A stretch of 40,614 bases of DNA from Myxococcales bacterium (GTDB taxonomy: Bacteria > Myxococcota_A > Polyangia > Fen-1088). A program made the position numbers and the translations under genes. Below are positions 2 through 40,614 of the stretch, piece after piece. The stretch is from positions 1 through 40,614 of the forward strand of contig PMIX01000281.1 of NCBI GenBank assembly GCA_003158395.1, read 5' to 3'. How positions within the stretch are numbered: the stretch's first letter is position 1; every line of letters begins with the position of its first letter. A model generated the notes under the pieces. It was not told where the DNA came from. It saw only the letters and a list, made by a program, of their open reading frames with translations, and made no database searches.

Positions 2-1318
2 GCGGGAAGGCATGGAAACCCTTCCAGGGTTTCCATATCCGTGCTCGCGCTCGGGCTCCTGGCGGCCTGCGAAGGAGTCAGCTCCAAAACGATCGAGCAG
101 TGGAAGGGGACTCAGAAGGGGCCGCCAAAGATCGAGGATGTCCTACGCAACTCTAGCGCAGCGCCCCGGCTGCGCGCCGAGGCAGCGGCCGCCCTTGTCG
201 ACTTGGGCACGCCCGAGAAGGTGGACGAGGCGATGGCGGCTCTGCCGGCCAACCAGCGCTGGGAGATCGTCAAGTCGCTCGTTCCCCTCTACGTCAGGAC
301 CTTGGAGAGTGCGCCTGTGCCCAAGGCCCGCGATGCCCGCGATGGGCTGTTCAGTGTCCGTCCCTACGCGCAGCCTGACGACCAAAAGCAGATCGACGCC
401 GCGATTTTGACGTCGCTGGAGAAGGACCTGAGGGAAGGCCGTTTTGCGGGGGGCCGGCATTCGATCGATAAGATGTTGACCGCTGTCGGTACGCCGGCGG
501 GACCCATGCTGGTCAGGCTGCTCCAGGAACCCAGGGCGCCCTACAAGGGGCTGGCCGATCTCTTGGCCAGGGTGGGTGACGAGTCGGCGCGCGAAAAGGG
601 TGGCACGGCCCTAGTACGCCGGGCGGTGGCCGAAAACGAAATCCCCAACGACATGTGGATTGCCCTGGGCACCTTGGGCGGACAAAGCGTGACGGACTTT
701 CTGACCCAGAAGCTCCTGAAGGGCCCGCCGGCAGAGGCGGCGTTGGCTGCCAAAGCGCTACAACAGTCGCGCTACCCCGGTGTGCTCCCGCTGGCGCTCA
801 AGATTGCTGCCGACCCGAAGGCCAACAACTTGGTGCGAGATGAGATCTTCGGCGTGGTAGAAAAGATCGGCGGCCCGGCGGCACAGAAAGGCCTCGTGGA
901 AATCATAGCCAATGACAGAAAGGATCTGGTGCGCTATCGGGCGTATGAGGCCGCTTTGGAGGCGGGCAAGGTCGAGGCCATACTTCCCGCGCTGCAGGCC
1001 TTCTCGGACAAGCTCAGTTTCAAAAAGGAAGATGTGGTCGATTTTCTGGTCAAGGACATCACTAGGCTCGGTATGTCGGCCAAACCCGTGGTACTGAGCG
1101 CCCTGTCGTCACCGTCAGCCCTGGCGCGCATCACGGCCGTCTGGGCGCTGGAATCCCCTCTGGCCAACCCCAAGCAGTCGCTCGGCGCAGCGAGCGATGC
1201 CGTCGCGCTGTTGAAGCTGGCGGACGACAAGGCCAGCCTCAAGGGTTTCCCAGCCGGCGTGACCGTCGGCCTTGAGGCCAAGCGCGTGGCGGTGGTGTTG
1301 CAGAAAAGGGGTCGCTAG
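2..1318 (+). CDS. HEAT-repeat-like lipoprotein, 5' end probably truncated by the window edge
   Basis: ORF 41..1318; the frame stays open to the window start (reads ...GRHGNPSRVSISVLALGLLAACEG), giving a lipobox-like LLAAC and then helical repeats with alternating A/L/V. The GTG at 41 lacks an N-terminal positively charged region, so the true start may lie upstream. Confidence 0.6.
   Translation, partial: AGRHGNPSRVSISVLALGLLAACEGVSSKTIEQWKGTQKGPPKIEDVLRNSSAAPRLRAEAAAALVDLGTPEKVDEAMAALPANQRWEIVKSLVPLYVRTLESAPVPKARDARDGLFSVRPYAQPDDQKQIDAAILTSLEKDLREGRFAGGRHSIDKMLTAVGTPAGPMLVRLLQEPRAPYKGLADLLARVGDESAREKGGTALVRRAVAENEIPNDMWIALGTLGGQSVTDFLTQKLLKGPPAEAALAAKALQQSRYPGVLPLALKIAADPKANNLVRDEIFGVVEKIGGPAAQKGLVEIIANDRKDLVRYRAYEAALEAGKVEAILPALQAFSDKLSFKKEDVVDFLVKDITRLGMSAKPVVLSALSSPSALARITAVWALESPLANPKQSLGAASDAVALLKLADDKASLKGFPAGVTVGLEAKRVAVVLQKRGR
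12..36. repeat. Perfect 11-bp inverted repeat (ATGGAAACCCT-TCC-AGGGTTTCCAT)
   Basis: Read directly: ATGGAAACCCT at 12-22, loop TCC, AGGGTTTCCAT at 26-36. Confidence 0.85.
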
Positions 1319-1343
1319 CAGCGAGACGAGGTAAGAAGCAGTC

Positions 1344-2042
1344 ATGGCCAATGATCCCACCAGGAAGACTCTCCGGCACTTCTACTGCCGCGATTTACTC
1401 TGGCAGAGCTTCGAGCGCATGTCTGAGGCGCTGGACCGGGGCGTCGACGAGCTGGTGAACGAGGCGATGCGGGCCCTTGCCCAGCAGCAGGGTTTTCTGC
1501 CATCGGACTTCGTCGCATCGCCGGGCAGTGGGCTCTCGCAGCCCGAGCGAGTGTTGCCGCGTCCTGACGAGCGCACGGGGAGCGTGCCGTCGCGGCCTGA
1601 TGTGCAGGTCGAGACTGGGAAGTCCCCGACCGGCCTTCGCCGGGCCGTGCCCCCACCGCTGCCCCCGGCCTACGCCACGGCCGAGCAGTCCGCGAGCCAT
1701 CAGCCCCTTCCGCCTGCCGCCGCCACTCTCTCGGTCCCGGCGCCCAGTGGAGGCGGAGTCGCGCCACCCTTGTATCTAGTCTTCGGGAACCAGAGATACG
1801 TCATCGACAAGGATCAGTTCATCATCGGTCGTGGAACCAAGTCGTCTGACCTGCCCATACGTGACGGCAACATTTCGCGCAAACATGCGGTGGTGATTCG
1901 GCGTAACGGCGAGTACTACATCAAGGACCTGGGCTCTACCAACGGCATTGACCACAACGGCGAGCGCATCGAGGGTAAGAAGATCGAGGAAGGGGACATC
2001 TTCTCGATTTGCGACTACCAGTTGAAATTCACGTACAAGTAG
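1344..2042 (+). CDS. FHA domain protein with N-terminal ribbon-helix-helix-like segment
   Basis: C-terminus IIGRGTKSSDLPIRDGNISRKHAVVIRRNGEYYIKDLGSTNGIDHNGERIEGKKI is a canonical FHA (GR..., SRKHA, LGSTNG). N-terminal LLWQSFERMSEALDRGVDELVNEAMRALA, then a Pro-rich linker. Confidence 0.88.
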   Translation: MANDPTRKTLRHFYCRDLLWQSFERMSEALDRGVDELVNEAMRALAQQQGFLPSDFVASPGSGLSQPERVLPRPDERTGSVPSRPDVQVETGKSPTGLRRAVPPPLPPAYATAEQSASHQPLPPAAATLSVPAPSGGGVAPPLYLVFGNQRYVIDKDQFIIGRGTKSSDLPIRDGNISRKHAVVIRRNGEYYIKDLGSTNGIDHNGERIEGKKIEEGDIFSICDYQLKFTYK

Positions 2043-2063
2043 GAGCCGACGAGTGCGCGGAAC

Positions 2064-4226
2064 ATGGCCGGCGCCCTTGACCCGTCGCTACTCGACCAGC
2101 CCGTGACCGCACTGCCCGGGGCCGGGCCAGTGACGGCGGCGCGATTGGCCGAGCGGGGGCTGGAAAGCGTCCGTGACCTGCTGGCCTTTCTGCCGCTCGG
2201 ATATGAGGACTTTCGCACACTCTTCCCGCTATCGGCGCTCGCCGGTTTGCCTGAGGGCCAAGCTGTGGTGGTGCGGGCTCCGGTCCGGCGGGTTCGTCCA
2301 TTCTTCCGGCGCTTGCTCGATGTGTACCTGGAGCAGGATGGGGTGCCGATGCGGGCACGCTGGTTTCGGCCCAATGCCGGCATGCTCAAAACCTACGCCA
2401 AGGGGAACTTCGTGGCGCTAGCCGGAAGCTTGCGGCGGGCGAAGGACGGAAGCGTCGAGCTCATTCATCCCCGCAACGTAACGACGCTCATGGCGGCGCA
2501 GGAGGCGTCGGGCACGCCGTCCGGCTTGGGGCTGCAGCCGCGCTATCCGACAGTGGAGAAGGTTCCCGGCCGGGTCGTCGAGAAGCTCGTCGCGGCGGCT
2601 GTCGACCGGGCGGCGGGGCTGGTGCCGGATGTACTGCCCCAGGGCGTGGCAAGACGTTTCGGCTTTCCTTCGATCGCCGAGTCGCTTCGCCGGGTCCATC
2701 AACCGGAGGCCTCGCTTTCCGACGACAAGCTTGCCGAGCTGGTGGCGGGGCAAGCACCGGCGCAAAGGCGCCTGGTGTTCGAGGACCTGTTCGTCGTCCA
2801 GGTCGGGCTGGCCTTGGAACGCGGCCGCGTCCGCCGCGCGGCGGGTTGGCGCTGCGATGTCGATGGCGAACAGGTGTTGGCATCGGCTCGAGCCGCGCTG
2901 CCTTTTGTGCTCACCCCTGGCCAGGAACGCGCTATTCGAATTCTGTTCGCAGATCTGACCGGGGCGACGCCCATGCAGCGGCTGCTTCACGGTGACGTGG
3001 GGAGCGGCAAGACCGCGGTGGCCTTTGCCGCGGCCTTGCTGATCGCACGTGCCGGCAGACAGAGTCTGCTGATGGCCCCCACAGAGGTGCTGGCTGAGCA
3101 ACACGGGCGCACCTTGGCGGTCTGGGGCGGCAAGGCAGGCTTGCGGGTAGGGGTCCTGCATGCGGGATTGGCTGCGCAGGAGCGGCGTCGAGTACTGGCG
3201 GCGGCTGCGAGCGGCGCGACCAATCTGCTGGTCGGTACGCATGCATTGTTGGAAGGCGGATTGCGAGTTCCGCGACTGGCCTTGGCCATCGTGGACGAGC
3301 AGCACCGCTTCGGGGTACGCCAGCGGGCAGCCCTGCGTCGAGCCGGGGGGTGGATTCCCGACAAGAAAACCGACATGGTTCCCCACCTTCTGGTGTTGTC
3401 TGCCACGCCCATCCCGCGCTCTTTGGCGCTAACCGCCTACGGCGATCTTGACCTGGTCACCCTCGACGAGTCTCCGCCGGGCCGTCAGGTCGTGGCGACC
3501 AGTCTGTGCGTGGGCGAGGCTACGCGGGGCGAGGCTCTGGCCGCGGTCAAGGCAGCCGTCGCAGCCGGCGGCCAGGGTTTCGTGGTTTGTCCGGCCATCG
3601 TCGAGCAGAAGCAGGGCCGGCGCGCTTCGGTGCTGTCCCGCTTTCGCGAGCTGCGTCTGCTGCTGGCGCCCGCGCGCGTAGGCCTTCTGCACGGACAGAT
3701 GCCGAGCAATGAGCAACAGGAGGTGGTCGCGGCGTTTCGTACCGGAAAGCTCGATGTCCTGATCGCCACCACCGTGCTGGAGGTTGGCGTGGATGTGCCG
3801 CACGCTTCGATCATCCTCATCGAGGATGCCGAGCGCTTTGGCCTGGCGCAGTTGCACCAGCTGCGCGGTCGCGTGGGACGGGCGGGGCAGGCGTCGAGTT
3901 GCTATTTGCTCACCGGCGCGCAGGATCCTGAGACCCTAGAGCGATTGGAGTTCGTGGCCGCCACCAGCGACGGGTTCCGCATTGCCGAGGAAGACTTGCG
4001 CCGGCGCGGCCCGGGCGAGATCTACGGCGAGCGCCAGACTGGCGTTGTGGGCCTGTGGATGCGCGATCCGGCCGGCGTTGCGAGCTTGGTCGAGCGGGCG
4101 CGCCAGGAAGCCGAAGCGCTGCTGGCTGAGGATCCGGCGCTTGCGTCGCCTGAGCACGCGGCCTTGGGCCAAGCGGTCGAGACACGTTGGCTGCGCCGGC
4201 GCCCCATTGCCGAGGAAGCAGGATGA
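2064..4226 (+). CDS. recG: ATP-dependent DNA helicase RecG
   Basis: Walker A GDVGSGKTAVA, IVDEQHRFGVRQR, LVLSATPIPRSLALT, TTVLEVGVDVPHASIILIEDAERFGLAQLHQLRGRVGR; N-terminal wedge-like region. Confidence 0.96.
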   Translation: MAGALDPSLLDQPVTALPGAGPVTAARLAERGLESVRDLLAFLPLGYEDFRTLFPLSALAGLPEGQAVVVRAPVRRVRPFFRRLLDVYLEQDGVPMRARWFRPNAGMLKTYAKGNFVALAGSLRRAKDGSVELIHPRNVTTLMAAQEASGTPSGLGLQPRYPTVEKVPGRVVEKLVAAAVDRAAGLVPDVLPQGVARRFGFPSIAESLRRVHQPEASLSDDKLAELVAGQAPAQRRLVFEDLFVVQVGLALERGRVRRAAGWRCDVDGEQVLASARAALPFVLTPGQERAIRILFADLTGATPMQRLLHGDVGSGKTAVAFAAALLIARAGRQSLLMAPTEVLAEQHGRTLAVWGGKAGLRVGVLHAGLAAQERRRVLAAAASGATNLLVGTHALLEGGLRVPRLALAIVDEQHRFGVRQRAALRRAGGWIPDKKTDMVPHLLVLSATPIPRSLALTAYGDLDLVTLDESPPGRQVVATSLCVGEATRGEALAAVKAAVAAGGQGFVVCPAIVEQKQGRRASVLSRFRELRLLLAPARVGLLHGQMPSNEQQEVVAAFRTGKLDVLIATTVLEVGVDVPHASIILIEDAERFGLAQLHQLRGRVGRAGQASSCYLLTGAQDPETLERLEFVAATSDGFRIAEEDLRRRGPGEIYGERQTGVVGLWMRDPAGVASLVERARQEAEALLAEDPALASPEHAALGQAVETRWLRRRPIAEEAG

Positions 4227-6898
4227 GCAACCGGCTCCAGCGTGCCTTGTGGGCGGGGCTTGTCGGCGGCGTATTGGCCGGCAGCGGCGATGCGCTGGCT
4301 ACTCTGGCGGCTGCCCTGACCCGGCCGTCGGTGTTGAATGCGGCACTGCTGGGCGGCGTTGCAGGTGCTCTGCTGGGCGTAGGGCTGGCTCTGCTGGCCA
4401 CTCTCCTCTATGGGGTCGCGGTGCCGGTAGCGGCGCGTGTACCGCGGCTCTCGCCGGCGGCCCTGGTCGCGATGGGCATGGCTGCGCCACTTCTGGTCAC
4501 CGACGCCTTTGCCCTGTTCGCCGGGGCCAAGGCCTCGCGGGTGCCGGGACATCAGGCGATCTCCGTGGTGCTGGTGTTGATGATGCTCGTGCTTGTGGCG
4601 CTGGCCGGCAGCCTGTGGCAGCGACTGCTCGTCTATCTGGAAGGTGTGCCGGGACGAGTTTCCACAACCGTGACCACGGGGATCGGCCTGCTGGTCGTGG
4701 CGGCCGTCGCAGAGCAGGCCAATCGCGTGGTCTTGCCACGGCTCTATCCGTGGTTTCATGTCTCGCTGGGATTGCTCTCCGTCGTGGCCTGCGTGCTGGC
4801 GGCGCGGGCCGTGTTGCGCGGTCGGGCGTGGGGGCGCAGGGGGACGGTGGCTCTTGCGGCAAGCGTGCTGGTTGTGGCTGGGCTAGGCGCGCACGAGCTT
4901 TCTGTCATGGGCGAAAGCCAGAACCTGCGTTTTTTCGTTTACGAAAAGACCCAGGTGACCAGCCTGGTGCTGCGCCTGCTGCCGAAGCGCCGGCCTCCTC
5001 CACCTGTCCACCCGGGCGTTGTCCCGCAAGCGGCGGCCAGCCCCTTGCCCGAGGGACCCCACCGGCCTGATGCCGATGTCGTGCTCATCACCGTAGACGC
5101 CACACGGGCCGATCACGTGGGCGCCTATGGCTATGGTCGTCCGACCACGCCCAACATCGATGCGCTGGCCAGACGCGGGGTGCGCTTCGAGCGCGCCTAC
5201 GCCCAGGCTCCGCACACGTCGTTCTCCATAGCCTCGCTTCTGACCGGCAAGTATTACCCCACGCTGGCGCGGCTGTCCCCGCAAAGCCAGCATGAAACCT
5301 TGCCCCTGACCCTGCGCCGCTACGGCTGGAAGACCGCGGCTTTCTTTCCGCCTGCGGTGTTCTTCATCGATGCGCAGAAAATGAAGACCTTCGAAACCAC
5401 CAACTTCGACTTCGAGTACGTGAAATACGAGTACCTGGACGCCGACGGGCGGGTTGGGCAGATCGAAGACTTCTTTCGCAGTGAGAATCCACGCAGGCTC
5501 TTCCTCTGGCTGCACCTTTTCGAGCCCCACGAGCCCTATGAGGCGCACAAGGGCCATGACTTCGGCAGCCGCGACATCGATCGCTACGACAGCGAGATCG
5601 CGTATTGCGACGCCGTGGTAGGCCGGGTGATCGAGTATCTGCACAAAGAGCGGCCCAATGCCATCATTGTGGTGGCTGCGGATCACGGCGAGGAATTCGA
5701 CGAGCACGGCGGGCGCTACCACGGAACCACGCTCTATGACGAACAGGTGCGCGTGCCGCTTGTCATCTACGTTCCCGGGGTGCCGCCGCATGTGGTGGCA
5801 GGTCCCGTCCAGTTGATCGACATCGCGCCCACCATCCTGGGGCTGCTCGACCTGCTGGCGCCGGCGCGCATGCGGGGGACCGACCTGGGGCCGTGGCTGG
5901 CTGCGCCGCCCGCGTCTGACGACCGCCTGCCTCCGGTGTTCGCCGAGGTGGAGGACAAGCGCATGGTGGTCAAGGGTCAGGAAAAGCTGATCTGCGACCT
6001 GGCCAAGGACTACTGTGCATACCACGACTTGGCGACTGATCCGCGCGAAGAGCACGACCTGGCTGAGGCGCGACCGGAACGAGTGGCGGCGCTGCACCAG
6101 CTGATCGACACGTGGCTCGACCAGCAGGCGCGCTTTGAGTCTGAACGTCTGGCCGGCGTGGACAGCCCCGCGGTGCCCCAGGCCATCGAGCGCGGCCGCA
6201 TGGGCGATCCAGACACGGCGCCCGCGCTGGCGGCTATGCTGCAATCGCGGGCGCCGGTGGAACTGCGGCGCGAGGCGGCCCGATTGCTGGTCGAGGCGCT
6301 GCCAGCCCGGCAAGACACGCGGCCGATGATCGTGGCGGCGATAGACACAGCCGATGACGAGGAAGTCCGTGATTGGGCGGCCGTGGCGGCAGTAAGGTTA
6401 GGCGAGGCGGCGGGCCGTTCGCGCTTGCAAGCCATTGTCGGGCGTTCAGGCAGCGAACCCCACCGGGCGCTGCGACTCCACGCAGCGCTGGCTCTGGCCC
6501 AAGCCGGTGACGGTACGGGCATGATGGTATTGGGCGAGGCACTGGATACGTGTTCGGCCAATGAGGCGTTGTGTAAGTCGATCATCACAGCTTTGGGAAA
6601 ACTGCGCGACCCACGCGCCGTGCCGGTCCTGATCGGGCACCTGTCTGATGTGTTGACCCGGGTGGAAGTCGTGCAGGCCCTGGGAGAGATCGGCGACGCC
6701 TCGGCCGAGCCCGCGCTGGTGGAACGCCTGAAGACCGACGAATATGTGCCCGTGCGCTTGGCAGCGGTACGCGCACTGGCCGGCATCGGCGGCGCACGCG
6801 CCGTGCTGGCCCTTCGCTGGTCCGTCAGCCACGAGAAAGAGCCGCGCGTGGCTGAGGCTGCACGAGCGGTCCTGGCGGAATTGCGGCGAGGACAGTAG
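4223..6898 (+). CDS. Alkaline phosphatase superfamily ('sulfatase-like') membrane protein with N-terminal TM helices and C-terminal HEAT-like repeats
   Basis: ORF 4187..6898; ATG at 4223 overlaps the recG stop (ATGA). Motifs VVLITVDATRADHVGAYGYGRPTTPNIDALARRGVRFERAYAQAPHTSFSIASLLTGKYYP, ADHGEEFDEHGGRYHGTTLYDEQVRVPLVIY; C-terminal repeats RDPRAVPVLIGHLSDVLTRVEVVQALGEIGD etc. Confidence 0.85.
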   Translation: MSNRLQRALWAGLVGGVLAGSGDALATLAAALTRPSVLNAALLGGVAGALLGVGLALLATLLYGVAVPVAARVPRLSPAALVAMGMAAPLLVTDAFALFAGAKASRVPGHQAISVVLVLMMLVLVALAGSLWQRLLVYLEGVPGRVSTTVTTGIGLLVVAAVAEQANRVVLPRLYPWFHVSLGLLSVVACVLAARAVLRGRAWGRRGTVALAASVLVVAGLGAHELSVMGESQNLRFFVYEKTQVTSLVLRLLPKRRPPPPVHPGVVPQAAASPLPEGPHRPDADVVLITVDATRADHVGAYGYGRPTTPNIDALARRGVRFERAYAQAPHTSFSIASLLTGKYYPTLARLSPQSQHETLPLTLRRYGWKTAAFFPPAVFFIDAQKMKTFETTNFDFEYVKYEYLDADGRVGQIEDFFRSENPRRLFLWLHLFEPHEPYEAHKGHDFGSRDIDRYDSEIAYCDAVVGRVIEYLHKERPNAIIVVAADHGEEFDEHGGRYHGTTLYDEQVRVPLVIYVPGVPPHVVAGPVQLIDIAPTILGLLDLLAPARMRGTDLGPWLAAPPASDDRLPPVFAEVEDKRMVVKGQEKLICDLAKDYCAYHDLATDPREEHDLAEARPERVAALHQLIDTWLDQQARFESERLAGVDSPAVPQAIERGRMGDPDTAPALAAMLQSRAPVELRREAARLLVEALPARQDTRPMIVAAIDTADDEEVRDWAAVAAVRLGEAAGRSRLQAIVGRSGSEPHRALRLHAALALAQAGDGTGMMVLGEALDTCSANEALCKSIITALGKLRDPRAVPVLIGHLSDVLTRVEVVQALGEIGDASAEPALVERLKTDEYVPVRLAAVRALAGIGGARAVLALRWSVSHEKEPRVAEAARAVLAELRRGQ

Positions 6899-34922: not shown

Positions 34923-36047
34923 GTGGAGACCGCAAACCCGTTGACACGGCCTCGCGCCGGCGCTGAACTTCAGCCCATGCTCAACCTCGCTGGCGTTGCC
35001 GTGGTCATCATGATTGCTCAAGGCGGGCCGCCGCAGGGACTGCAGAAGGCGAATCCCGCGACGGCCTACCTGGAACGAGGGCAGAAGCTTATTCAGTCGG
35101 GCGACCTGGCCGGCGCGCTGGCGGCCTTCGATGCGGCGGCCAAGGCCGACCCCAAAGACCCGCGTGCCTACTACCTCCGGGGCGTAGTGTTGGAAAAGAG
35201 GCACGACCTGGCTGGGGCCGAGAGGTCGTACCGTGAGGCTGCCGACCGCGACGGCCGGTTTGCGCCCGCGCGCAACAACCTAGGTGCCATGTTGCTCGGC
35301 AAGGGCGAGACAGCCGCCGCCGAGAAGGAGCTCCAGGCCGCCCTCAGGGGCGACCCCAAGTACGCCGACGCCCACTTCAACTTGGGGCTCGTGCGCGATG
35401 CACAGGGCAAGCCAGGCGAGGCGGTGCGATCGTACCGAGAGGCCGTGCGCCTGCGGCCCGACGACGCCAGCTTTCACGTCAACTTGGGCGCGGCGTTGCG
35501 CAAGATCCGTGACATCGACGGCGCGGTGACCGAGCTGCGTCAGGCGGCGCGCCTGGCGCCGCAAGATCCGACGGTGTTGACCAACCTGGGACTTCTGCTC
35601 TCCGACGGAAAGGCGCTCGATGAGGCGCGCGACATGCTGGCAAGAGCCGCCCGACTCGACCCCAAGCTGGCCGCAGCGTGGACCGGCCTGGGACGGGTGG
35701 AGATGCGGCGCAAACAGCCAGCCGCGGCTGCCGACGCGTTGGCGTGGGCACGCAAGCTGGAACCAAAGAACGCGACCATCGCCGCTGACTACTGTCGCGC
35801 GCTAGCTGACAATGACATCAAGGCCAAAGCAGCCCGGGAAGAATGCCGGGCCGCCGTCGCGCTCGACGGCAGCAGTGCGCTGGCCCGCTACGAGCTGGGC
35901 AAGGTTCTGGTGGCCCACGGTGACTGCGCAGGCGCCAAGAGCGAGTTCGATAAGTTCGCCGGCCTCGCCGGGATCAAGCCCGAGGCCAAGGCCAAGGCGC
36001 AGGAGATCCTGAAGACCTGCACGCCGGCCAAGCCAGGGAAGAAGTAG
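34923..36047 (+). CDS. TPR repeat protein
   Basis: TPR signatures DPRAYYLRGVVLEKRHDLAGAERSYREAADRDGRFAPARNNLGAMLLGKGETAAAEKELQAALRGDPKYADAHFNLGLVRDAQGKPGEAVRSYREA. ATG at 34977 is an alternative start. Confidence 0.9.
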   Translation: METANPLTRPRAGAELQPMLNLAGVAVVIMIAQGGPPQGLQKANPATAYLERGQKLIQSGDLAGALAAFDAAAKADPKDPRAYYLRGVVLEKRHDLAGAERSYREAADRDGRFAPARNNLGAMLLGKGETAAAEKELQAALRGDPKYADAHFNLGLVRDAQGKPGEAVRSYREAVRLRPDDASFHVNLGAALRKIRDIDGAVTELRQAARLAPQDPTVLTNLGLLLSDGKALDEARDMLARAARLDPKLAAAWTGLGRVEMRRKQPAAAADALAWARKLEPKNATIAADYCRALADNDIKAKAAREECRAAVALDGSSALARYELGKVLVAHGDCAGAKSEFDKFAGLAGIKPEAKAKAQEILKTCTPAKPGKK

Positions 36048-36102
36048 CCCGAGCAGAGAGACAGAGCTGGGAGTAGACGGTGTGGGTGACAGATGCGGTG
36101 GC

Positions 36103-36138
36103 GGTGACGGTGACAGAGGCGGTGACGGTGACAGAGGC
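36103..36138. repeat. 18-bp tandem repeat GGTGACGGTGACAGAGGC x2 with degenerate flanking GGTGAC/GGTGGC units
   Basis: Identical copies at 36103-36120 and 36121-36138; a related unit at 36085-36102. Confidence 0.85.
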
Positions 36139-36173
36139 GGTGGGCTCGGGGGCATTGACCGGCTCTTGTGTAG

Positions 36174-36224
36174 GGGCGACCTGCGGTCGCCCGTGTGGGC
36201 CCGGGCCTTTTGGCGGCCCGGGCC
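36174..36224. repeat. Paired hairpins at the distal end of the left arm
   Basis: GGGCGACC-TGC-GGTCGCCC (36174-36192) and GGCCCGGGCC-TTTTGGC-GGCCCGGGCC (36198-36224). Confidence 0.9.
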
Positions 36225-36233
36225 AGGACGGAA

Positions 36234-36563
36234 TCAGGAATGGGTCAGGCGCCAGAGAATCGCGAGGATGGAATCGAGGAGGGACAGTGCAGGTGTGACA
36301 GTGCCTTGGTCCACGTCACCCCAAGCCATCGCGACGGCCAGATGGGAACGCACTTCCCCGGCGGAGCCGGCAGCGATCCGGTAGTGATGAAGTCGATCCT
36401 GGCCCGCGCGTCGAGCCCCTTCGGCGATGTTGCCCGGCACGGAGGAGCCAGCGCGTTTGAGCTGCAGGGCCAGATCCCTGTCGTGAAGGCGAATACGCTC
36501 GACCGCCGGCCGGAGCGCGTGAACCATCTGCAGAGCCATTTCGTAGACCTCGAAGCGTTTCAT
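36234..36563 (-). CDS. Four-helix bundle protein (S23/IVS family, Avd-like fold), left copy
   Basis: MKRFEVYEMALQMVHALRPAVERIRLHDRDLALQLKRAGSSVPGNIAEGARRAGQDRLHHYRIAAGSAGEVRSHLAVAMAWGDVDQGTVTPALSLLDSILAILWRLTHS; ATG preceded by AAAGGAGGTCCTG. Confidence 0.88.
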   Translation of the reverse strand: MKRFEVYEMALQMVHALRPAVERIRLHDRDLALQLKRAGSSVPGNIAEGARRAGQDRLHHYRIAAGSAGEVRSHLAVAMAWGDVDQGTVTPALSLLDSILAILWRLTHS

Positions 36564-36723
36564 CAGGACCTCCTTTGTCGCGGCCTCAAGCAGGCCGTCG
36601 CGCAGCGATGACGGTCCCCTGTCCCGGCGCAAGGACGAAACGACAAGGTCAGCGCGAAACCATCGCGTCCGGTGGTTCCTCCTACCGGCCGAACGCCGAG
36701 CGTGACACGAGCGTCTCGTTTGG

Positions 36724-36742
36724 GTAGTGTATGCGACACTAC
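36724..36742. promoter_or_regulatory. Perfect 7-bp inverted repeat upstream of the likely AAA ATPase start (candidate operator)
   Basis: GTAGTGT-ATGCG-ACACTAC; the better start is GTG 36758 with GGGAG upstream. Confidence 0.45.
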
Positions 36743-36757
36743 TGCGGGAGAAAGTAC

Positions 36758-37978
36758 GTGGCGCTTATCGAAGGGTTCCGCATCAAGAACTACCGCGTAC
36801 TGCGGGACGTAACCTTGGGTCGCTTGCGTACAGGCCAGAACCAGCCCGAAGCACTCACGCCCTTGGTGGCCGTGATCGGAAAGAACGGCACGGGCAAGAG
36901 CACACTCTTCGATGCTTTCGGCTTCCTAGCAGATGCCTTGCGGGTGGGAGTCGAGGAGGCGTGCGATCTCAAGCAGCGCGGTGGGTTTGACAGACTGGTG
37001 TCGGCTGGCACATCTGAACCTGTTGAGTTCGAACTCTACTATCGTGAGAGCGGCGAGGCGCGCCCGATCAGCTACGAGCTCAAGATTGGTAAGGAAAAGA
37101 AGGGGCGACCGTATGTTCTTTCGGAGCGTCTGAGCGGCACTCGGCCCAGGGCAAAGCGAGGGCGGCTCTACGACTACCTTCGCGTGGAGAACGGTACGGG
37201 ATCGGCGTGGCGGGGTGAACAGCCCGGGGTGAACGAACAGGATCGTGTTGAAGTCAATTTGGCAGACCCACGCCATTTGGGAATTGCGACATTTGGCGCC
37301 CTGAAGGAACATCCGCCGATTGTGCGTTTCCGCGAGTTTCTGAGCGGTTGGTATCTCTCCTACTTTACGCCAGATGCGGCACGTTCGTTGCCGATGGCCG
37401 GACCCCAGAAACACCTCAACGTGCACGGTGACAACCTCGGCAACGTGGTCCAGTTCATGGAAAGGGAGCACCCGGAGCGCTTCAAGGCGATCCTGGACCG
37501 GATCGCGGCCAAGATTCCGGGCATCGATAAGATCGACACGAGCAAGACCGATGATGGACGTCTTCTGCTGCGCTTCAACGACAAGGGATTCAAGGATCCC
37601 TTTTTCGCGCAGCAGATGTCCGATGGCACGCTCAAGCTCTTTGCATACCTGCTTCTTCTCGAGGATCCAGAGCCGCCCCCATTCGTCTGCATAGAGGAGC
37701 CGGAAAACGGGCTCTACCATCGGCTACTGGATACGCTCGCGGAGGAGTTTCGCAAGCACGCCACTGGACGGCGCGGAGCGGCTCAAGTATTCGTGACGAC
37801 ACACCAGCCGTATTTCGTCGATGCCCTCCGTCCCGAAGAGACGTGGATCCTCGACAAGGAATCCGATGGATTCTCCGGCATTCGTCGCGCGAGTGACGAC
37901 CGGATCGTGAAGGCGATGGTCCAAGAGAGCCTGCCTCTTGGCGGGCTTTGGTACAGTGAGTACCTTGACAAGAAATGA
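36758..37978 (+). CDS. AAA family ATPase (AAA_21/OLD-like ATPase subunit)
   Basis: ORF 36731..37978; MALIEGFRIKNYRVLRDVTLG; Walker A VIGKNGTGKSTLFDAFGFL; signature-like QMSDGTLKLFAYLLLL; Walker B PPFVCIEEPENGL; H-loop VFVTTHQPYFVDAL. Confidence 0.9.
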   Translation: MALIEGFRIKNYRVLRDVTLGRLRTGQNQPEALTPLVAVIGKNGTGKSTLFDAFGFLADALRVGVEEACDLKQRGGFDRLVSAGTSEPVEFELYYRESGEARPISYELKIGKEKKGRPYVLSERLSGTRPRAKRGRLYDYLRVENGTGSAWRGEQPGVNEQDRVEVNLADPRHLGIATFGALKEHPPIVRFREFLSGWYLSYFTPDAARSLPMAGPQKHLNVHGDNLGNVVQFMEREHPERFKAILDRIAAKIPGIDKIDTSKTDDGRLLLRFNDKGFKDPFFAQQMSDGTLKLFAYLLLLEDPEPPPFVCIEEPENGLYHRLLDTLAEEFRKHATGRRGAAQVFVTTHQPYFVDALRPEETWILDKESDGFSGIRRASDDRIVKAMVQESLPLGGLWYSEYLDKK

Positions 37979-38646
37979 AGGCGATGCACTTCGAGATTCT
38001 GGTTGAGGATCTGTCCGGCAAGTACGCCCTTGAACATCTCGTGCCAGCAATCCTTGGTCCGCAGGGCGTGCCGCATACCTGGCGGATCTTTTCCTACAGA
38101 GGGGTAGGTCGCATTCCGCAGAGACTGAAACCGACAAAGGAATTGTCCCGTCGGATTCTGCTCGACACTCTTCCGCGTCTGTTGCGCGGCTACGGCAGAT
38201 CTCTCGCATCCACAAATGCCGCGGTAGTCGTCGTGGTGGACGCCGACGACAGGGATTGCGGCGAGTTCCTTCGAGATCTCCGGAACCTGCTGGCAAGCCT
38301 TTCGCCTCGACCGAACAACACTCTCTTTCGTTTGGCTATCGAGGAAATGGAGGCTTGGTATCTAGGTGACCGCGCGGCGATCTTGAAAGCATATCCGAGA
38401 GCCAAGAAGGTCGAACTCGGCCGCTACCAACAGGACGCCGCATGCGGGACGTGGGAACGACTTGCGGATGCCATTCACCCCGATGGGTCCAAGACTCTTG
38501 TCAAACAGGGGTATCCGCTCGTGGGCCAGAAGAAATGCGAATGGGCGCAACGCATCGCGCCCCACATGGATCCCGAGCGCAACGTGTCCACGAGTTTCGC
38601 CAAGTTCCGCGACGGCTTGCGCCGTGTGGCTTCGTCGCTGCCGTAG
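37975..38646 (+). CDS. DUF4276 family (TOPRIM-like) protein
   Basis: ATGA overlap with the ATPase stop; FEILVEDLSGKYALEHLVPAILG, AVVVVVDADDRDCGEFLRDL, FRLAIEEMEAWYLGDRAAILKAYPRAKK. Confidence 0.8.
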   Translation: MKAMHFEILVEDLSGKYALEHLVPAILGPQGVPHTWRIFSYRGVGRIPQRLKPTKELSRRILLDTLPRLLRGYGRSLASTNAAVVVVVDADDRDCGEFLRDLRNLLASLSPRPNNTLFRLAIEEMEAWYLGDRAAILKAYPRAKKVELGRYQQDAACGTWERLADAIHPDGSKTLVKQGYPLVGQKKCEWAQRIAPHMDPERNVSTSFAKFRDGLRRVASSLP

Positions 38647-38882
38647 CTGCTGCAGCTGACGGCGTCCGAGGACATGAGGCCGAAGTGGCGGGTCTCTACA
38701 AAGCGTTGGGGCAGATGTGTTCCTCAGTCCGCGCAGCCCGCCAGTAGGCGCGCAGCGCCTCGAGACCATGCCACCGGCCGCGATGGTTTCGCTCTGATCT
38801 TGTCGTTTCGTCCTTGCGCCGGGACAGGGGACCGTCACACGCGCACGGCGGCCTGCTTGAGGCCGCGACAGAGGAGGTCCTG

Positions 38883-39212
38883 ATGAAACGCTTCGAGGTC
38901 TACGAAATGGCTCTGCAGATGGTTCACGCGCTCCGGCCGGCGGTCGAGCGGATTCGCCTTCACGACCGGGATTTGGCCCTGCAACTCAAACGCGCTGGCT
39001 CCTCCGTGCCGGGCAACATCGCCGAAGGGGCTCGACGCGCGGGCCAGGATCGACTTCATCACTACCGGATCGCTGCCGGCTCCGCCGGGGAAGTGCGTTC
39101 CCATCTGGCCGTCGCGATGGCTTGGGGCGACGTGGACCAAGCCACCGTCACACCTGCACTGGCGCTGCTCGATTCCATCCTCGCGATTCTCTGGCGGCTG
39201 ACCCATCCCTGA
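38883..39212 (+). CDS. Four-helix bundle protein (S23/IVS family, Avd-like fold), right copy
   Basis: MKRFEVYEMALQMVHALRPAVERIRLHDRDLALQLKRAGSSVPGNIAEGARRAGQDRLHHYRIAAGSAGEVRSHLAVAMAWGDVDQATVTPALALLDSILAILWRLTHP; GAGGAGGTCCTG before the ATG. Confidence 0.88.
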   Translation: MKRFEVYEMALQMVHALRPAVERIRLHDRDLALQLKRAGSSVPGNIAEGARRAGQDRLHHYRIAAGSAGEVRSHLAVAMAWGDVDQATVTPALALLDSILAILWRLTHP

Positions 39213-39221
39213 TTCCGTCCT

Positions 39222-39271
39222 GGCCCGGGCCGCCAAAGGCCCGGGCCCACACGGGCGACCGCAGGTCCCCC
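39222..39271. repeat. Paired hairpins at the distal end of the right arm
   Basis: GGCCCGGGCC-GCCAAA-GGCCCGGGCC (39222-39247) and GGGCGACC-GCA-GGTCCCCC (39254-39271, one stem mismatch). Confidence 0.85.
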
Positions 39272-39430
39272 CTACAAACGAGGTGCCGGTCAATGCCCCC
39301 GAGCCCACCGCCACCGTGTCTGTCACCGTCACAGTTTCGGTCACCGTCGCCGCCTCTGTCACCGTCACCGCCACCGCCGCCGCCTCTGTCACCCACACCG
39401 CACCCCGCATCCCAGGAGAGAAAACCGCAC

Positions 39431-39460
39431 TTGAATAGCCGCCCTGCGCTCGGCTAATCT
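39431..39460 (+). promoter_or_regulatory. Candidate guaB promoter (TTGAAT-N18-TAATCT)
   Basis: -35-like TTGAAT at 39431-39436 and -10-like TAATCT at 39455-39460, immediately before ATG 39467. Confidence 0.4.
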
Positions 39461-39466
39461 CCCGAG

Positions 39467-40614
39467 ATGCTGCCCGACGGTTCCCTGCGCGAAGCGCTCA
39501 CCTTCGATGACGTGCTGCTGGTTCCCGCGGAAAGCGATGTCCTGCCCAAGGATGTTGATGTCCGTACCGAACTGACCCCCACCATCCCGTTGGCCAACCC
39601 GATCATCTCGGCGGCCATGGACACTGTGACCGAGGCGCGCACCGCCATCAGCATGGCGCGCGACGGGGGGCTGGGCATCATTCACAAGAATCTGGGCATC
39701 GACGAGCAGGCCTTGGAGGTCAGCAAGGTGAAGAAGGCTGAGACCGGGGTGGTGTTGGATCCGGTCACCATCGGCCCTGATCAGAAGCTCTTTGCGGCGC
39801 TCGAGCTCATGAAGCGCTACGAGATCTCGGGCCTACCGGTGGTGGCGGAAGATGGTCGTCTGGTCGGCATCCTGACCAATCGTGACTTGCGCTTTGAACG
39901 GCACCTCGACCAGCCGGTGCGGAATCTCATGACCACCAAGCTCATCACCGCGCACGAGGGCCTGAGCCTGGAGGAGTCCAAGGAGCTGCTGCACAAGAAT
40001 CGCATCGAGAAGCTCCTGGTGGTGGACGAGGCGGGCCGGCTGCGCGGACTGATCACCATCAAAGACATCGAGAAGGCTCAGCAGCATCCGGATGCAGTCA
40101 AGGATGATCTGGGCCGCTTGCGCGTGGGTGCTGCGGTGGGAACCGGGGTCGACCGGGTGGCGCGCGCCTCCGCCCTCCTGCAGGCGGGCGCGGATGTCAT
40201 CTGTATAGACACCGCCCATGGCCACTCCCGCTCGGTGCTGGAGGCGGTGGCCGACATTCGCAAGACCTTCCCCAAGGCGCAGATCATTGCTGGCAATGTC
40301 GCGACCGCCGAGGGCGCGCTGGCCCTTGCCAAGGCGGGCGTGAATGCGGTCAAGGTGGGCATCGGCGCGGGTTCGATCTGCACTACCCGCGTGATTGCCG
40401 GCATCGGTGTCCCTCAGATGACGGCGGTGACCGATGCCGCACGCGCTCTGGCCAAGCTGGACGTGCGCATCGTTTCCGATGGCGGCGTGAAGTACTCGGG
40501 CGACATCACCAAGGCCATTGCAGCGGGCGCTCACACGGTGATGATCGGCAGTCTGTTCGCCGGCACCGACGAGGCGCCGGGCGAGATCATCCTTTACCAA
40601 GGCCGCAGCTACAA
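39467..40614 (+). CDS. guaB: IMP dehydrogenase, truncated at the window end
   Basis: [38 protein letters not shown]...[13 protein letters not shown]...two CBS domains...[26 protein letters not shown]...[37 protein letters not shown]. Absent from the ORF track because there is no in-window stop. Confidence 0.97.

Follow-up and report, generated by a model that had tools for sequence, protein, structure and literature searches.

In a 40,614-nt stretch of Myxococcales bacterium DNA (contig PMIX01000281.1 of assembly GCA_003158395.1, here called the window; its genome is G000), an insertion of ~3.35 kb lies between the gene for a TPR protein and guaB. It consists of two inverted modules, the arms, each with its own gene for a 23S rRNA intervening-sequence protein (IVP), which bracket a two-gene cargo, the candidate defence system HEC-01. 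Arms of this kind also enclose other cargo, mostly defence-like, at further sites and in sister species, and one site carries a shared insertion whose arms are orthologous but whose cargo differs between two genomes (G005 and G003). The explanation that we favour, at a probability of roughly 0.6, is that these are transposase-less composite cassettes, which a transposase acting in trans moves and whose cargo is afterwards exchanged by recombination within the arms. The element, its arms and the adjoining host genes are:

36067..39415, no strand: whole inserted composite element, CTGGGA to TCCCAG, missing from the TPR–guaB gap of congeners
36078..36675, minus strand: left inverted arm, type A, IVP gene outward (inverted-repeat comparison, blastn)
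38771..39400, plus strand: right inverted arm, type A (inverted-repeat comparison, blastn)
34923..36047, plus strand: left flanking host gene, TPR protein
39467..40612, plus strand: right flanking host gene guaB, extending past the window end

For flank comparison we located guaB in 39 genomes. Two congeners, G006 (L017) and G002 (L022), have 4–6 unaligned bp between the stop codon of the TPR gene and the conserved sequence upstream of guaB, where G000 has ~3.35 kb; the window locus is an insertion, absent at the guaB site of these congeners. An inserted cassette is what the initial annotation, made by a model from the letters alone, had proposed, and the empty sites also rule out vertical conservation of the whole TPR–guaB locus, which it had named as counting against its own reading. 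The span that it gave, 36078–39400, is where the arm homology ends; by empty-site comparison the insertion is slightly larger, at about 36048–39418.

The core of the arms is an inverted match of 36198–36675 to 38771–39248, 478 nt at 94% complementarity with a spacer of 2,095 nt, and homology extends outward from it (59 nt at 86% plus 86 nt at 81%), crossing a short palindrome into minisatellites and reaching 36078 and 39400. Compared by blastn, the two arms are 90.7% identical over 632 columns. Since a further 352 kb of fetched sequence, largely of the same genus, held no other inverted repeat of at least 150 nt at 80% or more, the inverted arms of the window are beyond chance. The structure has the hallmarks of a composite transposon, namely two inverted copies around cargo, with the whole missing at empty sites; as the initial annotation had remarked, no transposase (DDE), integrase or Y1 gene was seen among the open reading frames (ORFs) of the insert or their Pfam profile matches, and Rfam gave no match in 35900–39600. 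The minor features of the outer arms are:

36170..36192, no strand: REP-like (repetitive extragenic palindromic) palindrome GTAGGGGCGACCTGCGGTCGCCC, also scattered through the rest of the genome and found in some type A arms but not all
36076..36142, no strand: left outer minisatellite, units of 18–24 bp
39306..39408, no strand: right outer minisatellite, units of 6/18/30 bp

To our knowledge, the S23p/IVP four-helix family, widespread as it is, has been without an assigned function for decades. Each arm encodes one member:

36234..36563, minus strand: left-arm IVP gene (PF05635 1.9e-14, TIGR02436 1.4e-14)
38883..39212, plus strand: right-arm IVP gene (PF05635 1.1e-14, TIGR02436 1.1e-14)
38848..38866, plus strand: hairpin immediately 5' of the IVP ribosome-binding site (RNA fold, z −1.4, alone not significant), mirrored in the left arm

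Both score 54–55 bits, against curated cut-offs of 33.8 (PF05635) and 24 (TIGR02436), which bears out the annotated pair of ~600-bp inverted arms with a conserved ORF of their own. The likely starts (ATGAAACGCTTC...) are at 36563 (minus) and 38883 (plus), giving products of 109 amino acids from ATG within longer ORFs (36234–36632 on the left and 38814–39212 on the right), and the two copies are 96.4% identical in DNA. Selection on the two arm genes is strongly purifying: the ratio of nonsynonymous to synonymous substitution rates (dN/dS) is 0.08–0.10 across type A arms, 0.09–0.10 across type A and type B arms and 0.07–0.08 between the arms of one element, and both copies are therefore kept as proteins. 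In arms of both types, A and B, a hairpin lies ahead of the IVP start. No reverse transcriptase was found among the Pfam matches of the window insert, and the Avd-containing diversity-generating retroelement is thus not matched. Viral contigs and phage records, when searched, yielded no IVP relative, and plasmids yielded one weak Nostoc match. The nearest solved structure is that of XCC0516 (2gsc, 5.5e-8), a pentamer built of four-helix bundles (PMC4990558).

The cargo in the 2.1-kb core comprises two genes on one strand, overlapping by 4 nt:

36731..37978, plus strand: cargo gene 1, AAA_21 ATPase, HEC-01A, 415 amino acids (PF13304 5.5e-39; PADLOC PDLC04182 1.7e-183)
37975..38646, plus strand: cargo gene 2, DUF4276 protein, HEC-01B, 223 amino acids (PF14103 8.3e-13; PADLOC PDLC04205 5.9e-89)

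With HEC-01A and HEC-01B full-length, adjacent and co-directional, the pair corresponds to the PADLOC definition of the candidate defence system HEC-01. The initial annotation had recognised both genes, and the EDLSGK, VDADD and IEEMEAW motifs that it read in the DUF4276 protein are present; it had started the ATPase at 36758, which we move to 36731. Eight residues are invariant in 19 DUF4276 homologues (E11, S14, D89, D91, E124, E126, D132 and A135), and E11, D89, D91, E124 and E126 among them recall the Glu...DxD signature of TOPRIM nucleases. A GajA profile is matched, weakly (7e-5), by one distant DUF4276 member; the DUF4276 profile had no match in the PDB, and an AlphaFold2 model from the single sequence was too poor for a fold search (pLDDT, the predicted local distance difference test score, of 37). 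The ATPase also matches the AriA domain profile (PDLC02980, 9.1e-36). The proposed likeness to OLD/Gabija-type nucleases accordingly stands as a motif pattern and one weak profile match, with an ABC-type ATPase with a partner predicted from its acidic motifs to be TOPRIM-like, as in GajA and PARIS, but the Gabija architecture is not found: in Gabija and class 2 OLD systems the two functions share a single polypeptide, whereas here the ATPase and DUF4276 are separate ORFs, and no ORF for a UvrD-like GajB helicase was recognised in the insert. The partner also differs from that of PARIS, being DUF4276 rather than AriB (DUF4435). We infer that the ATPase would control its nuclease-like DUF4276 partner and thereby restrict phage.

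The HEC-01 ATPase occurs in 28 of 138 genomes of the class, usually with DUF4276 adjoining; within the genus it was found (E <= 1e-20) in G000 alone. Among the HEC-01 loci examined, the window copy is the only one bracketed by IVP arms, and in other families the fetched loci of its nearest relatives, ~1.5 kb each side, contain no IVP gene. Since HEC-01 is found elsewhere without arms, the cargo is a known candidate system able to live arm-free. The initial annotation had regarded armless pairs together with cargo-free, randomly arranged arms as speaking against it; the former do occur in other families, but in the genus the IVP arms are found solely as inverted pairs around cargo, or else decayed or at contig edges. 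A second HEC-01-like pair without arms lies in the window genome (L109, G000:C140:1500-6000, at 1074–3022), comprising a 517-amino-acid ATPase (PDLC04184, 4.4e-88) and a 132-amino-acid DUF4276-like protein; it occupies the intergenic site where G005 has the type B cassette L078.

Seven congeneric genomes of these soil myxobacteria were surveyed, all of them drafts: metagenome-assembled genomes (MAGs) with hundreds of contigs, some of which end inside elements. A PF05635 search found a second inverted pair, with unrelated cargo, in the window genome (C457), and across the seven genomes two IVP subfamilies make up 11 complete inverted pairs. The IVP genes point outward in type A elements, the window's type, and inward in type B, and total size is 2–4.5 kb. 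No direct or solitary complete copy of these subfamilies was present in the seven genomes, the remaining matches being decayed or contig-edge copies, and on these grounds we rejected the view of the arms as random lone repeats. The initial annotation had called for other cargo between paired arms, and such cargo is there:

Window: HEC-01
L014: PDC-S18 + TIR-like
L073/L074: HNH endonuclease, one site in two species, 96% (orthologous element)
L075 (G003): Schlafen/AlbA_2 + dCTP deaminase-like
L076: HNH_2
L077: Mrr_N-GmrSD-HEPN
L078 (type B, G005): CapH-like HTH
L079 (type B): Mrr
L080: Shedu
L072 (G005): uncharacterised
L082 (type B): uncharacterised
L084: methyltransferase, one arm decayed
L250 (decayed relative, G000:C341:16500-22543, about 1779–5716): type II restriction enzyme (2e-77), methyltransferase (1.8e-51) and PDC-S63-like gene
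L252 (decayed relative, G006:C384): IVP gene internally deleted, cargo uncharacterised
L108 (decayed relative, G002:C84): DUF4365 nuclease-like gene

About 10 of the 15 cargoes are defence- or nuclease-like, as compared to only generic helicase and HEAT matches, for two of ten ordinary window genes. Arm–cargo junctions are sharp, the type A inner end ...CGAAACCATCGCGGCCGGTGGCG being common to essentially all type A arms, and the G+C content is 0.58–0.62 for cargo versus 0.67–0.71 for arms. In L250, from the window genome, type A outer ends (91 bp at 93%) enclose a complete type II restriction-modification system, and the IVP genes are gone. Around the DUF4365 gene of L108 (1899–4161) there is an IVP-less inner arm sequence of ~80 bp, forming a 93% inverted pair; a similar stretch inside the decayed arm of L252 (3180–3290) suggests a third type of module.

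The breadth of this collection bears on two other explanations. Inverted arms could be chimeric joins made in assembly or binning, as drafts of hundreds of contigs with repeats often at contig ends might lead one to suspect; the same layout recurs in MAGs that were binned separately and differ in cargo, with exact flanking genes and with empty sites to match, however, and an orthologous element with the same cargo is present in two species (L073/L074), so that an artefact is scarcely credible. The four-helix proteins could also be part of the defence itself, regulating or guarding the cargo or addicting the cell to it in the manner of an antitoxin. That each cassette, whatever it carries, has two conserved copies under purifying selection would fit such a role, yet one IVP type accompanies unrelated cargo, the restriction-modification cassette L250 persists without IVP genes and the nearest HEC-01 relatives elsewhere lack them; we consider this role very improbable.

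Cargo replacement is clearest in the comparison of L072 (G005) with L075 (G003). The two share junctions and are ~92% identical through both flanks and both arms, homology ends at the inner arm ends, and the cargo is wholly different. At the site of L076, G002 (L108) has other cargo but still a type A outer end at the shared junction, and at that of L084, G003 (L111) retains an arm remnant. At the L072 site G006 differs by 15.7 kb (L110); the genes in this stretch are core-like, and we took it for a rearrangement. While the pattern of exchange is directly visible, the process behind it we infer: once an element has settled, its long arms would serve as homology for double-crossover exchange of the cargo. 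The same pattern, together with the fixed inner boundaries and with cargo-free inverted IVP pairs in other families (see below), might alternatively mean that the arms are passive targets, an old resident IVP pair at each site between which cargo was inserted by unrelated means. This we regard as improbable. The congeners' empty sites are without arms as well as without cargo, and therefore the arms arrived too; moreover, no cargo-free pair of these two subfamilies was seen in the genus.

A joint flank search and fetched sequences identified empty sites in congeners for L072/L075, L073/L074, L078, L079, L082 and L084; at the L076 site the element is missing in congeners, with ~190 bp of other sequence instead. 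The ends are most informative for type B. L079 is flanked by a perfect 4-bp duplication, CTAG/AACCGCCTCTCG...GAGGCGGTT/CTAG, with a single CTAG in two empty relatives, and L082 agrees in having a CTAG duplication; the pattern in L079 and L082 is CTAG/NACCGCCTCTCG...CGAGAGGCGGTN/CTAG. All seven genomes contain the type B end as a dispersed repeat, with 5 to 24 or more matches each (0 for the reversed-pattern control), mostly preceded by CTAG, and it also forms short two-ended copies of about 130–240 bp. Type B thus has the features of a miniature inverted-repeat transposable element (MITE): terminal inverted repeats, target duplication, dispersed short copies and no transposase. Under the trans-mobilisation reading, the element would reach new sites through a DDE-type transposase that is supplied in trans and works on its outermost ends. 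For type B this is supported by the terminal inverted repeats, the CTAG duplications and the MITE family with the same end; to type A it is extended only by analogy.

Two candidates for the machinery were discarded. Given the CTAG target, we took an IS701-type DDE_5 transposase to be the presumptive helper, but one broken copy (two matches) in one of the seven genomes is all there is; and a 4.5-kb stretch between two type B ends (G000:C267) contains host-like genes between separate short repeats and is not an autonomous element. We also noted a genus-wide MITE-like repeat, CTAGT/ACCGCCTCTCGNARRTTCGTAGCTGGTTGAGCGGCCGG (G000:C24, C45, C73 and others; L122–L151), for which no autonomous partner was found in the genus data.

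Several results weigh against trans-mobilised, cargo-swapping cassettes. No clean target-site duplication was found at any type A element, the guaB site of the window included; no transposase with matching ends was found, and IS701-like DDE_5 is nearly missing from the genus. One site shows a full cargo swap and two show a partial one, 4–5 of the 15 cargoes are not recognisably defence genes, and every genome is a draft. The lack of visible type A duplications, the strong purifying selection on both arm genes and the multicopy cargo-free inverted IVP pairs in several other families of the class are all compatible with a different explanation, in which the IVP is a working part of a distinct mobile system and the hairpin-bearing paired arms are its substrate. 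Such movement could be hairpin- or RNA-based, perhaps by an Avd-like RNA-binding protein plus a helper in trans, with the MITE-like type B ends secondary. However, the type B junctions resemble ordinary DDE transposition with CTAG duplication, L250 and L252 have lost the IVP gene and kept outer ends and cargo (they may be dead copies), and neither a reverse transcriptase nor a nuclease accompanies the arms. IVP-driven mobility is possible, though unlikely; if true, it would be the more novel outcome. Under trans-mobilisation, the IVP protein may instead bind the nucleic acid of its own arm, through the hairpins at the translation start, and serve upkeep or exchange of the element.

The cassettes can be likened to several known systems. 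As in composite transposons bracketed by insertion sequences, near-identical inverted copies surround exchangeable cargo and empty sites exist, but the arms encode IVP, the only product recognised in them, and no transposase, and their inner ends do not form evident inverted repeats with their outer ends. There are also MITE-bracketed composites, such as the pair of MITEs on either side of class 1 integrons in Acinetobacter (treated in PMC6382973): ends are transposase-less terminal inverted repeats, cargo lies between two copies and mobilisation in trans is presumed, with type B sharing the terminal inverted repeat, the CTAG duplication and a dispersed short repeat with an identical end. They differ in that the arms here are ~0.6 kb with a protein gene under purifying selection, the cargo is mostly defence genes, and type A has no demonstrable duplications. 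The intervening sequence of 23S rRNA that encodes S23p/IVP is small, has hairpins at its ends and has for a long time been under suspicion of being selfish (PMC4990558); the protein family and the small hairpin-bearing module are shared, whereas the window element lies between a TPR gene and guaB rather than in 23S rRNA, and forms inverted pairs with cargo. Tn7-like transposons bring defence cargo (PMC8649781) and are likewise small mobile elements with diverse anti-phage systems, but no transposase gene was found in the window element, and the cassettes total 2–4.5 kb.

We found no description of such elements in the open-licence literature. Tentatively, and with the odds against it, they might represent an undescribed class of mobile element in which the paired inverted IVP modules, rather than a transposase, constitute a dedicated platform for capturing and exchanging anti-phage genes, comparable to some degree to an integron, with short defence cassettes as its content; if so, the IVP protein would be a working component of it. 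The combination of paired conserved IVP arms, empty sites and at least one clear cargo replacement makes IVP function testable, and with it the question of how very small recombinase-less defence cassettes move and turn over. The arms can further be used to look for new defence systems: the content between them is enriched in known defence genes, and the uncharacterised cargoes of L072, L082 and L252 are therefore defence candidates.

Beyond the genus, IVP genes often occur class-wide in cargo-free inverted pairs (G036, G033, G128, G109 and G102). Six fetched copies of a ~950-bp element from G036 (L152–L157), 86–88% mutually identical, comprise two convergent IVP genes and no cargo, with a longer, near-perfect hairpin (~33 bp) at each start codon and hexamer minisatellites outside. 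Because such pairs are common, the cassettes look like the cargo-bearing form of a wider paired-IVP element. G081, of the same class, has a large IVP repeat expansion (156 first-look candidates; all 30 of those scored match IVP, many at contig ends). G015, of the same family as the window genome, has 13 PF05635 matches, and an in-frame TAG is common to many of its IVP copies, as if they were a pseudogenised or recoded multicopy family. Finally, single IVP genes lie between short inverted repeats in L182 (Legionellaceae; 1588–2093, 43 bp at 100%) and L190 (5903–6484, 38 bp at 95%), possibly a one-gene form of the module.

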